From an uncultured Candidatus Saccharibacteria bacterium (GTDB lineage Bacteria > Patescibacteriota > Saccharimonadia > Saccharimonadales > Saccharimonadaceae), in NCBI GenBank assembly GCA_947425245.1, contig CANDYU010000001.1:1-63027 (forward strand): a stretch of DNA of 63,027 nt. The letters run 5' to 3'. The notes beneath the pieces were generated by a model. The model was not told where the DNA came from. It saw only the letters and a program-made list of their open reading frames with translations, and did not search any database. Positions 12,264 to 52,729 of the stretch are shown here, piece by piece (positions within the stretch are counted from its first letter, which is position 1; each line of letters begins with the position of its first letter). The translations under genes and the position numbers were made by a program.

Positions 12264-12489
12264 TTCGTCCGTAGCGGGTTTATTTATTATCTCTATGGTT
12301 CGGCTCGAGATCTTAGCTTCGCTAGTTATTATTGGTCTACTACAACTTCAACAGTTTATGACACCGGATCAAATGGTATAGCAGGTTATTACCTCCGTTT
12401 CAATACTTCTAATGTTAACTCATCACGTGGTCCGAACGATCGCTATTTTGCTTTCCCCATCCGTTGTCTGGCGTACTAGGTTAGATAGG
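12264..12489 (+). repeat. FISUMP 3'-end cassette 1
   Basis: Begins with the core TCGTCCGTAGCGG in the frame (F)VRSG and ends with the 29-bp core (starts CCCCATCC, ends CTAGGTTA) that encodes PIRCLAY and the TAG stop at 12477. Between them lies a variable segment with YYWSTTTSTVYD and GPNDRYFAF. An ATG at 12252 is in frame, but there is no ribosome site, promoter or N-terminal domain, so it is read as a silent fragment. Beyond the core, about 40 bp with TTTCACCTGCG is shared with cassette 3. The cassette's 5' edge is about 60 bp from the tRNA-Pro(TGG) gene. Confidence 0.8.
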
Positions 12490-14112: not shown

Positions 14113-14242
14113 AAATGATGCTTAATAAAGCCTAAGAGGATTATATCAGAATCAAATACCCTTATCAAGGAACGCTATTAGGATCACGTTGTGTTCATGA
14201 TTTTAGCAATCCTATACCCGTAAAAGTCGACAGTACTCTTAT

Positions 14243-14463
14243 TTAACCTAGTACGCCAGACAACGGATGGGGAAAGCACCCCAGCGATGGTCTGGACCAT
14301 TGGACGAATCAATACTATTAGCACTAAGATTAAGAAAGTAGGCTGTTAAACCAGCCGATCCATTGCCGTATGCTGATGCGGCCGTCGATGTTCGGTTGTA
14401 GCCATAAACACCCGCGAAACGCATTGAACCACAGCCACGATTGGTATATCCGCTACGGACGAA
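14243..14463 (-). repeat. FISUMP 3'-end cassette 2
   Basis: Minus-strand copy: core TCGTCCGTAGCGG at the 14463 end, the same 29-bp terminal core with stop at 14248-14250. Variable part contains GSMRFAGVYGYNR and GPDHRWGAF. Just outside its 5' end a hairpin GAACCCGTA/TACGGGTTC spans 14461-14485. An in-frame ATG (14487) lies in that hairpin without a ribosome site. Confidence 0.8.
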
Positions 14464-14537: not shown

Positions 14538-14764
14538 ATCGTCCGTAGCGGCAACATCACCCGCAATGACGGTTCAGGACGAACGCTTGGCCTACATAGC
14601 TATATTTGGGCTCTAACCGCCTCTACAGTTTATGGCCATGGAACAGGTGGACTAGCTGGCTATTATATAGATTTCGATATGAGTGGTATGAATACATCAG
14701 GTGGAGCTAGTGCCCGTTGGTACGCTCTCCCCATCCGTTGTCTGGCGTACTAGGTTAGATAGGT
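14538..14764 (+). repeat. FISUMP 3'-end cassette 3
   Basis: Plus-strand copy, divergent from cassette 2 with 74 bp between them. Same 13-bp opening and 29-bp closing cores, stop at 14751-14753. Variable part contains GLHSYIWALTASTVYG and SARWYAL. No start codon precedes it. Its 3' flank runs directly into the broken end of a DUF2726 gene. Confidence 0.8.
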
Positions 14765-16168: not shown

Positions 16169-16321
16169 ATGAATTTCATTCCATTATTTTTGCTGCCCTG
16201 TTTTGCGCCCGAGCGTGCGGACAGCAGCACGACGCAGGGTGCAAAGATAAAAAGTAGTTCAATCTTTACTCTGTCCCATAACTTGATATATGGGACAGAA
16301 AAGGGGTCAGATGTCATATAA
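16169..16321 (+). CDS. Possible 50-residue protein ahead of the HUH gene
   Basis: ATG 7 bases after AAGGAG; the start MNFIPLFLLPCFAPERADSS looks like a short hydrophobic leader, followed by a polar tail. Its last 11 bases overlap the start of the HUH gene in another frame, suggesting coupled translation. No homologue recognised. Confidence 0.45.
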   Translation: MNFIPLFLLPCFAPERADSSTTQGAKIKSSSIFTLSHNLIYGTEKGSDVI

Positions 16322-17105
16322 CCAAAACTATAAAACGTCTAGTACAGTTTTCGCTATGGCTACATACTATCCAAACAAAATTAGAGTTTTCATACCGACT
16401 ATGCCATTTTCTTGTGAGGATAGGGGTGTCAATTCTAATGCTTGTGATATTGCTTCCGAAGATATATTAAAAGATGATAGTAATCTTGAACGTTCACTTC
16501 GCCGGACTAAGAAATGCATTAGCGATTATATCCTCTGTAATCCATTTGAGCTATTCATTACTTTTACTTTTGCTAAGAATCGGCAGAATGTTGATGAAAA
16601 ACGTGCACAGATGGCTACGTGGCTTAAAAATCAGCGTAAAAGAAACGGGAAGTTTGACTATCTCATTGTCCCAGAATTCCATAAAGACAAGCTGTCGCTA
16701 CACTTCCATGCCCTGTTCTATGGATATTGTGGAAGAATTGAACGGGCAATTAACCCCAAAACTAATAAACTTATCGTTCAAAATGGTCAGAAAATTTATA
16801 CTCTGCCGGAATATACATTGGGGTTTAGTAACGCAAAGCAGATTATCCAGAGTGAAGAATCTGCAAACCGAGTAGCTCATTATGTTAAAAAATACATCAC
16901 TAAGGATATGCCAACATTTTTTAATAAGCAACGTTATTGGGTCTCAAAAGGATTAAAATTACCAAAAGTTCAGTATAATCCTGAACCATGGTTTAGAAAC
17001 TTTAAGCCCAATTGGGAAATAGAAAACGATTTCGGCCGTATTATGGAATTTAATATAGGAGCTAATCCCATAATTGATGCATACTGGAGAAAATATAATG
17101 GATAA
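16311..17105 (+). CDS. HUH-type replication initiator (rolling-circle plasmid/phage Rep)
   Basis: 264 residues from the ATG at 16311, which has AGGGG upstream; the in-frame ATG at 16290 is less well placed. Motif 2 is HFHALFYGY (His-hydrophobic-His, about residue 130) and the motif 3 tyrosine region is AHYVKKYITKD (about residue 190); FITFTFAKN near residue 80 fits motif 1. Such proteins nick one strand at the origin through the tyrosine and start rolling-circle replication. The hairpins at 15.8-16.1 kb and the recombinase downstream suggest an integrated small replicon. No capsid gene is seen, so plasmid and ssDNA phage cannot be separated. Confidence 0.75.
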   Translation: MSYNQNYKTSSTVFAMATYYPNKIRVFIPTMPFSCEDRGVNSNACDIASEDILKDDSNLERSLRRTKKCISDYILCNPFELFITFTFAKNRQNVDEKRAQMATWLKNQRKRNGKFDYLIVPEFHKDKLSLHFHALFYGYCGRIERAINPKTNKLIVQNGQKIYTLPEYTLGFSNAKQIIQSEESANRVAHYVKKYITKDMPTFFNKQRYWVSKGLKLPKVQYNPEPWFRNFKPNWEIENDFGRIMEFNIGANPIIDAYWRKYNG

Positions 17106-17193
17106 GGAGGAGCTAGACAGATTTATTGATTTTGTTAAAATTCTACACGAACTTAAACTTAGTTTAACGCCGAAGTCTAAGAATACTGTATAA
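17098..17193 (+). CDS. 31-residue protein overlapping the Rep stop
   Basis: Starts at ATGGATAAG, overlapping the Rep stop codon by 8 bases, and reads MDKEELDRFIDFVKILHELK then a polar end. A charged amphipathic helix is likely. Overlap suggests translational coupling to Rep, possibly a small regulator, but no family is known. Confidence 0.4.
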   Translation: MDKEELDRFIDFVKILHELKLSLTPKSKNTV

Positions 17194-17200
17194 TAGAATT

Positions 17201-17296
17201 GCTTACTCAATTTATCGCTAATTATATCCCGTCTTTAATGGGTAGTTGTGTCAGGATGCATTAGCGTTTTGAGTAAGCCACAGCTACCCATTTTTG
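17201..17296 (+). promoter_or_regulatory. Interleaved (pseudoknot or switch) leader before the recombinase
   Basis: Three complementary pairs: A GCTTACTCAA (17201) with A' TTGAGTAAGC (17269); B GCTAAT (17217) with B' ATTAGC (17260); C ATGGGTAGTTGTG (17238) with C' (17279-17291, 13 pairs with one G-T). The order is A-B-C-B'-A'-C', so C-C' crosses A-A'. C' is followed by five T, making C-C' terminator-like. The perfect site AAGGAGGTGAT follows at 17299. This suits attenuation or a pseudoknot control of the recombinase. Confidence 0.6.
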
Positions 17297-17314
17297 ATAA
17301 GGAGGTGATAGAAA

Positions 17315-18765
17315 ATGAAAGCCATTATATTAGCCAGAGTTTCCAGCAAAGAGCAGGAGGAGAATAATTCAATTCCGGCACAAACTCGCCGATTATTAGA
17401 TTACTCTGAGCGTCATGGTTTATAAATAATTGAGACTCATCAATTAGTCGAATCATCCACTAAGACTAATCGCACGCAATTCACTAAAATTATTGCAAAT
17501 ATTAGAAAATCTAAAGAAACTATCGCATTGGTTACTGATACGATTGATCGTCTGCAAAGAAGTTTTCGCGAATCCGTGCAGTTGGATGAGCTTAGAAAAG
17601 CCAACAAAATTAAATTAAATTACATTTCGTTCGTGAGAATCTTGTCATAGATTCAAACTCCAATAGTGCCGATATTTTAAGGTGGGATATGGGTGTTCTA
17701 TTTGCTAAGAGTTATGTTACTCAATTAACTGACAATGTTAAACGTAGTCTAGAAGAAAAATTGAGAAATGGTGAACTTTCCACTCATGCCCCTTTTGGTT
17801 ATAGGAATTGCCGCAAAGACGGAAAAGCCTTCGTAGAGCCAGATAATCATGCACCTATTGTATGTGAAATGTTCCAGAGGTATGCTACCAGTGCTTATTC
17901 TTTACGTTCAATGCGAGATTGGGTTTTTGAAAGCTATGCCATTAAAAAGCCAGTAAGCACTATCGCCCATATCCTCAAAAATCCATTCTATTGTGGATTC
18001 ATTCTTCATGGAGAAAAACTTTATCCTCATAAGTATGAAGTACTGGTTGACAAGGAATTATTCGACAAAGTGCAGTCAGTGCTTGGTCGCATGCATAAAA
18101 CTCCACATAAGTATTGTGGCAAGCCTTTTGTGTATCGTGGGCTAATCACATGCTCCGAGTGCGGGTGTAGAATTACCATAGAAGAGCAAAAAGGTCATAT
18201 ATATTATCATTGCACTCAGCACAAAGGGAAGCATGGTGCTAGATATGTGCGTGAGGAAACGTTTAATGCTCAGGTCGTGCAGGCTTTAAGCGATATCTGT
18301 CCGACAGATGAGCAATATCGGATTTTAATTGAAGCAATGCAAAAAGAGTGTGCTAACGATGAGGAGAAACGAAAAGCAATATTAGCACACTTAGTTTCAG
18401 AGAGAAGCAAAAACGAGAAACGTGCTGAACGTCTATTTGACCTTTATTTAGATGGGGAACTCGACAAAGAAGAGTATCAGGCTAGACGGCAAGAACTTAA
18501 CGCTGAGAGGACGGTATTGAATCGGCAAATAGCTAATGTTGACAACAATACAGGAGAATGGTTTGAAAATATCCAATCAATTATGGACTTAGTTAAGAAT
18601 GCACCTCTGTTATTTGAACAGAGTTCGAAAATACCATTAAAAAGGCAACTCCTTAAAATCATATTCTCGAACCTTGAACTTTCAAATAATCAACTGAGGT
18701 ATGAGTATAATAAACCGTTCAATTTAATGACTTTTCGTGAAAAATGTCCAACTTGGTCAGGGTGA
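17315..18765 (+). pseudogene. Large serine recombinase, broken by a stop and a frameshift
   Basis: Catalytic domain begins ILARVSSKEQEENN with the nucleophile Ser at residue 10 or 11. A TAA interrupts after YSERHGL (17423-17425); the frame then continues (VTDTIDRLQRS) to about 17640, where a one-base shift is needed to reach VIDSNSNSADILRWDMG and the rest. Downstream are the recombinase domain (APFGYRNCRKDG...LKNPFYCGF), the zinc ribbon CSECGC...YHCTQHKG and a coiled coil. Intact length would be near 480. The reading frame ends inside the tRNA-Pro(CGG) gene, overlapping 12 bases. It is probably the integrase of the adjacent HUH element, now inactive. Confidence 0.85.
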
Positions 18766-18829
18766 TCGGATTTGAACCGACGACCTCGCAGTCCCGAACC
18801 GCGCGCGCTACCAACTGCGCCACACCCTG
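18754..18829 (-). tRNA. tRNA-Pro (CGG)
   Basis: Acceptor CAGGGTG/CACCCTG, anticodon stem CGCGG/CTGCG around TTCGGGA (anticodon CGG), CCA encoded. Its 3' end overlaps the end of the recombinase frame. A weak -10 (TAAAAT preceded by GTGG) lies just upstream. Confidence 0.93.
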
Positions 18830-18901
18830 AACTACTTTATTTTACCACAAAATATAGAGGTGCGGAAGAGTAAAGGTCGGGGTAGAAACTCATATTCTTA
18901 G

Positions 18902-19122
18902 CTAACCTAGTACGCCAGACAACGGATGGGGAAACCATACCAACGATGGTTCGGACCGCCCGACGGGTATATGTCACTAGCATCGAAACCGAGATCGTAC
19001 CCTGCTAAACCAGTTGATCCAGAGTAGTAAACTGGGGAAGAGGTAGCCGACCAATTGTAGCCATATAGACCAAGATACCGGGCAGAGCTGTAGCTCAGAC
19101 CGATGTATCCGCTACGGACGAA
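18902..19122 (-). repeat. FISUMP 3'-end cassette 4
   Basis: Minus-strand copy with both cores; stop at 18907-18909. Variable part contains SARYLGLYGYNWSATSSP and GPNHRWYGF. In-frame residues before the core read HGQGLHFVRSG, so a little more of the parent domain remains. The nearest ATG upstream is out of frame. It lies between a strong promoter and tRNA-Pro(CGG). Confidence 0.8.
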
Positions 19123-19162
19123 GTGAAGACCCTGGCCATGATTTACGTGGTCCTATCTTTTT

Positions 19163-52503: not shown

Positions 52504-52729
52504 TTTATCTAACCTAGTACGCCAGACAACGGATGGGGAAACCATTCCAACGACCGTCCGGGCCGCCCGACGGGTTGACGCCACTAGCATCGAAATCGAG
52601 GTCGTTACCTGTCAAACCAGCCAGCCCAGTACCGTAAGCAGGCGAAGCCGCAGTTGACCAATCGTAGCCATTGAGGCCAAGACGCCGGGCAGAGCCGTTG
52701 AGGCGATTGACGAGCCCGCTACGGACGAT
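52504..52729 (-). repeat. FISUMP 3'-end cassette 5
   Basis: Minus-strand copy with both cores; stop at 52514-52516. Variable part contains SARRLGLNGYDWSTAASP and GPDGRWNGF. It lies between comEC and tsaE on the same strand. Its opening core CGTCCGTAG supplies the stop codon of comEC in another frame. Confidence 0.8.

Follow-up and report, generated by a model that had tools for sequence, protein, structure and literature searches.

Does the short stretch of DNA directly upstream of a large serine recombinase (LSR) gene in an uncultured Candidatus Saccharibacteria bacterium encode an RNA, and what might such an RNA do? We asked this question of positions 17201 to 17315 in a window of 63,027 nucleotides (the whole stretch of contig CANDYU010000001.1 that was analyzed), where an initial annotation had noted complementary strands in crossed order and proposed an RNA leader that forms either a pseudoknot or competing antiterminator and terminator helices. 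Our data indicate that this leader recurs across Patescibacteria, with compensatory changes in both crossing helices, and comparison of its sequences leads us to a previously undescribed, phylum-wide RNA family as the best reading.

Anatomy of the leader

Direct reading of the window bore out the crossed order A-B-C-B'-A'-C' and the succession of C-C', a run of five T residues and a perfect Shine-Dalgarno (SD) sequence. The lengths first given for helix A (10 base pairs) and helix C (13 base pairs) were right, but helix B has 7 base pairs rather than 6, and two features had been missed: a further helix, D, and a TATAAT box 6 nucleotides 5' of helix A. The leader comprises the following features.

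17189 to 17194, forward strand: -10 hexamer TATAAT, ending exactly 6 nucleotides upstream of helix A
17201 to 17210, forward strand: 5' strand of helix A, GCTTACTCAA, 10 base pairs with 17269 to 17278; probable 5' end of the transcript
17216 to 17222, forward strand: 5' strand of helix B, CGCTAAT, 7 base pairs with 17260 to 17266
17226 to 17231, forward strand: 5' strand of helix D, ATCCCG, facing 17252 to 17257 with five of six pairs formed and one mismatch in the window copy
17238 to 17250 (17237 to 17250 with an extra A-U pair), forward strand: 5' strand of helix C, ATGGGTAGTTGTG, in the apical loop of the A-B-D hairpin
17252 to 17257, forward strand: strand D', CAGGAT, complement of 17226 to 17231
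17260 to 17266, forward strand: strand B', ATTAGCG, complement of 17216 to 17222
17269 to 17278, forward strand: strand A', TTGAGTAAGC, adjoining C' without a linker
17279 to 17291 (17279 to 17292 with an extra A-U pair), forward strand: strand C', CACAGCTACCCAT, just 5' of the ribosome-binding site
17291 to 17295, forward strand: T5 run after C'
17299 to 17309, forward strand: perfect Shine-Dalgarno sequence, AAGGAGGTGAT
17315, forward strand: ATG start codon of the recombinase

The 13 base pairs of C-C' in the window include one G-U pair, and one further A-U pair can be added. A 125-nucleotide region folds with -42.3 kcal/mol, compared to -23.85 +/- 3.16 kcal/mol in 200 dinucleotide shuffles (z -5.84). 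For the window copy, C-C' is predicted as the best fold; in that state the SD region is paired too, with UUUAUCGCU.

The transcript most likely starts with helix A, since the -10 box sits at a fixed distance of 6 nucleotides from it. Across the family described below, the hexamer ends exactly 6 nucleotides before helix A at 42 of 45 loci and reads exactly TATAAT at 31 of 45, compared to approximately 2 expected in shuffles. The best promoter score averages 13.35 on the forward strand and 7.27 on the reverse strand, the latter compared to 7.46 in shuffles. Given this strand-specific placement between a promoter and a start codon, the leader would function as RNA rather than as DNA.

Conservation and spread of the RNA family

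A homologue search of genomes revealed that related recombinases carry the same anatomy upstream: a -10 box, helix A, a long inner hairpin with a conserved apical segment, A', C', a short T-run and a start codon. We aligned 17 copies with MAFFT from sequence alone, so that the structure was not used, and found that 93.9% of cells are paired under the structure named above. Both-sided changes occur in 18 of 29 pairs (59 cells) and cover helices A (8 of the 9 pairs counted), C-C' (7 of 14) and D (3 of 6). The covariation score is 0.386, while shuffles give 0.157; in 500 shuffles no measure attained the observed value, and sliding the partner by 1 to 3 columns lowers pairing to 39-52%. Helix A is the most variable and takes every one of the four Watson-Crick pair types at its position 4; it varies freely, whereas GGGC within C hardly changes. 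Two crossing helices, each with compensatory changes, characterize pseudoknot-type RNA, and this is the pattern observed. Since homologous loci carry compensatory changes in both crossing helices, the RNA leader first proposed from the window alone is well supported.

The final set contains 46 distinct loci from 45 Patescibacteria genomes, the window locus included. With sequence motifs as the sole anchors for C and C', C columns 1 to 9 were paired in 45 of 45 copies, with up to six pair types per column (GC, TA, CG, TG, AT and GT); pairs in A are not an independent test in this count since A' was chosen by pairing. A local pairing search found C-C' helices of at least 10 base pairs at all 46 loci, window included. 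The linker between A' and C' is 0 to 2 nucleotides at each of them, and the inner hairpin has a z-score below -2 in 44. The single best fold predicted by RNAfold is the A hairpin in 38 of 46 leaders and C-C' in the remaining 8.

We found matches to a first covariance model (R1, built from 11 copies) in 16 of 392 genomes of the order and 12 of 394 genomes of the family. A second model (R2, built from 17 copies with helices A and D only) matched 28 of 380 genomes in a phylum-wide sample, 21 of them outside the order. Within the window's own genus, a DNA search gave one further match of low score inside an unrelated region. Pattern scans of IMG/VR for the leader and a plasmid BLAST search returned no matches, while phage BLAST returned short partial matches only (E 0.01 or worse). 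A search of IMG/VR with the recombinase found none, and with the replication protein (Rep) encoded upstream in the window it found one relative. Rfam 15 has no family over the leader at the gathering score in the window, nor at a relaxed E-value in 30 homologous loci, and we found no description of this RNA in the literature covered, which consisted of open-licence papers.

The leader stands directly before an LSR gene at 45 of 46 loci. Among 37 downstream proteins scanned, all have the Resolvase domain, 35 the Recombinase domain and 34 the zinc ribbon; the other downstream proteins, judged by eye, read as recombinases. A tRNA gene marks the end of the recombinase gene in most members that were checked. 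The upstream genes are diverse and include Rep in the window and in several relatives. The exception (L087 / L089, G804:C4) has its leader before a small open reading frame followed by a helix-turn-helix and M78-peptidase pair; the apical stem of this leader is extended and its T6GT5 tail exceptionally strong, and the stretch it lies in has a serine recombinase of its own, which ends at tRNA-Glu. Another locus (L090, G402:C28:20500-40000) has two tandem leader-recombinase units before tRNA-Asn and carries defence-like genes as cargo (Schlafen helicase, AAA_13, GIY-YIG, DUF2130 and MazG-like).

The leader is absent before the related recombinases L016, L017, L019 and L022-L025. On a tree of 56 recombinases, leader presence requires 4 changes compared to 16.1 when shuffled, a biased sample in that leaderless rows were picked by similarity to the window recombinase. 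These data suggest that leader and recombinase have largely been inherited together. As the tree is drawn, leader-bearing LSRs occur on either side of its deepest split. L012 / L043 and L014 / L046 have near-identical leaders, recombinases of different clades and different tRNA targets, and here the leader seems to have been kept while the recombinase gene was exchanged.

Two proposed folds and possible control of the recombinase

We hypothesized that the leader is a two-state mRNA switch in which the A-B-D hairpin alternates with C-C', the latter blocking initiation on the recombinase mRNA, and we assign this a probability of roughly 60%. Transcription would begin at helix A, and the nascent RNA would fold into the long A-B-D hairpin with strand C in its apical loop, complete before C' is synthesized. 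C' would then be free just 5' of the start codon, allowing the ribosome to load. In the alternative state, C would pair with C' and open B and D, while A could remain and stack on C-C' as a pseudoknot; a C-C' helix of 10 to 18 base pairs on or beside the initiation region would turn the recombinase off, mainly through translation initiation. We infer that the RNA does exchange between these states, that the hairpin state is ON, that control is translational and that a trigger exists, for which a protein, an RNA or folding kinetics are candidates.

By geometry, B/D and C are the competing pair: since C' is fixed at the foot of A and C lies atop B and D, a full C-C' helix needs B and D open. The difference between the C duplex and the inner hairpin has a median of +1.75 kcal/mol with loop terms ignored, and such near-equal energies fit a two-state element. 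C' ends at most 30 nucleotides from the called ATG in 42 of 46 leaders, a count that is approximate as start codons were called automatically. Given that C' lies near the start codon and that the hairpin would be made first, C-C' is favoured as the OFF state of translation initiation. Several observations weigh against this proposal. The recombinase in the window is a pseudogene, so its leader may control nothing, and a few of the automatic start-codon calls are wrong. The energies were computed without pseudoknots, ligand or loop penalties, and energy does not settle which state is the default. Furthermore, a simple SD check was positive in 25 of 46 leaders, and since nearly half of the members are without a recognizable SD sequence, we rejected SD masking as a general OFF device.

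Ranked second after translation control is transcription attenuation, in which C-C' and the T-run form an intrinsic terminator with the A-B-D hairpin as antiterminator; we consider it unlikely as an explanation of the whole family. T always follows C', the window has T5, the folding order is compatible, and the leader before another operon (L087) has T6GT5. An intrinsic terminator is a GC-rich hairpin followed directly by a U-run, usually of six or more, and the family does not show this combination of hairpin and U-run: the T-run is 2 to 6 long with a median of 4, is 3 or shorter in 8 of 46 leaders and reaches 6 in 3 of 46, while in approximately one third of members C-C' reaches into the T-run or right across it, with up to 18 base pairs. 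The terminator loop would also be large, and a simple terminator scan, limited to loops of 3 to 8, finds none in the window. Of what the initial annotation proposed, the crossing helices hold, and the terminator part is questionable as a mechanism for the family at large. Under translation control, attenuation may be added in copies with a longer T-run.

We also considered it rather improbable that helices A and C stack coaxially into one stable pseudoknot serving as a single fixed receptor to which a protein or small molecule would bind, like a riboswitch or a protein-bound operator. The linker of 0 to 2 nucleotides between A' and C' at all 46 loci is what coaxial stacking would require, and a nearly invariant GGGC in C beside a freely variable A could suit a receptor. 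However, B and D are conserved helices as well and are geometrically incompatible with full C-C', and no ligand or binding protein is known.

It is very improbable that the leader is a separate small RNA or guide RNA, working in trans or steering the recombinase to its target. A precedent exists in the bridge RNAs of IS110, and a compact structured RNA with its 5' end fixed at helix A does lie beside a DNA recombinase. Yet the variable parts conserve pairing only, the leader continues straight into the recombinase start codon, and near-identical leaders go with different tRNA ends (tRNA-Gln for L012, tRNA-Asn for L014), although this is one pair only. Least credible is a single-stranded DNA structure that serves the element as attachment site or origin of replication: the window and several relatives have a rolling-circle type Rep gene upstream, but the structure is fixed between the -10 box and the start codon, is also present at loci with another kind of upstream gene, and precedes a recombinase gene that ends at a tRNA in most members checked.

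Three candidates were rejected. An attachment site at the leader was set aside as the tRNA lies at the opposite end of the recombinase gene in most members checked, and the recombinase end at the tRNA points to an attachment site there. Antisense control was rejected for want of a reverse-strand promoter signal, while an antisense RNA could still be made elsewhere. A leader peptide was rejected since the AUG in strand C (MGGCARK...) is without an SD sequence and its frame shifts between members. This AUG seemed conserved among the close Saccharibacteria relatives, where it begins a short frame, but L052-L056 and most copies from across the phylum lack it.

Surrounding element, known systems and significance

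The leader in the window belongs to an element; the following features lie around it or elsewhere in the window.

16290 to 17105, forward strand: HUH replication protein (PF23343 REP_ORF2-G2P), the upstream gene of the element
17098 to 17192, forward strand: 31-codon open reading frame between rep and leader, with its stop codon inside the -10 box
17315 to 18765, forward strand: broken LSR gene, with TAA at 17423 to 17425, a frameshift at approximately 17620 to 17630 and an open 3' part at 17689 to 18765
18754 to 18829, reverse strand: tRNA-Pro, overlapped by the 3' end of the LSR gene
12264 to 12487 (forward), 14240 to 14460 (reverse), 14539 to 14761 (forward), 18899 to 19123 (reverse) and 52506 to 52552 (reverse): surface-protein-like C-terminal cassettes

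Among named relatives, those closest to the Rep protein come from Candidatus Saccharibacteria metagenome-assembled genomes. Open reading frames of similar size and place to the 31-codon frame precede other leaders and also leaderless recombinases (L022-L024). The cassettes, found on both strands of the window, encode approximately 75 C-terminal residues of an apparent surface protein, ending in RWYALPIRCLAY before the stop; they match 59 places in the 0.88 Mb genome and could be silent donors for sequence variation through gene conversion.

Pseudoknot-controlled translation leaders are known from Escherichia coli rpsO (S15), ColIb-P9 repZ and the preQ1 riboswitches. As in our leader family, a hairpin loop pairs beside the ribosome-binding site, and hairpin and pseudoknot states control initiation; no sequence relation is known, and our family differs in that A' adjoins C' and an LSR is the gene to be controlled. 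The antisense attenuators of pT181 and pIP501 are likewise mobile-element leaders with two alternative pairings, whereas the family described here has no reverse-strand antisense promoter signal and a weak T-run. IS200 has an antisense RNA, whereas our leader shows no antisense promoter signal. The 5' region of the IS200 tnpA mRNA is described as highly structured and doubles as a small RNA (PMC12594629); the likeness is a structured 5' mRNA region on the DNA-moving enzyme of a mobile element, while the enzyme class differs and the abstract of that paper does not contain the crossed A/C helix order. In Pseudomonas putida, the long 5' untranslated region of the ISPpu9 transposase mRNA can fold over the ribosome-binding site, as the leader may, and a weaker fold gives more translation (PMC8450116). 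That account concerns one insertion sequence, on which the small RNAs Ssr9 and Asr9 (the latter antisense) act as regulators, and contains no phylum-wide conserved crossed order (PMC8450116). Since the ISPpu9 and IS200 leaders precede it, a leader restraining a mobile-element enzyme is of an already known kind; the family, its crossed architecture, its association with LSRs and its spread appear to be new.

Given that this RNA is found repeatedly ahead of one kind of enzyme across Patescibacteria, it is probably, as judged from these comparisons, a built-in switch for integration. More tentatively, it may represent an ancient, phylum-wide class of RNA switch that senses a cellular or element-borne signal, so that an RNA rather than a repressor protein would decide whether to integrate or excise. 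A covariation-supported RNA tied to one kind of gene, that of integrating serine recombinases, is absent from Rfam 15, and since serine integrases are laboratory tools, a natural RNA element controlling them would have practical interest. Patescibacteria are tiny, mostly parasitic bacteria that make up a huge and poorly cultured share of bacterial diversity. The control of their mobile elements is largely unknown, and this RNA family offers a concrete handle on how integration is regulated in them.
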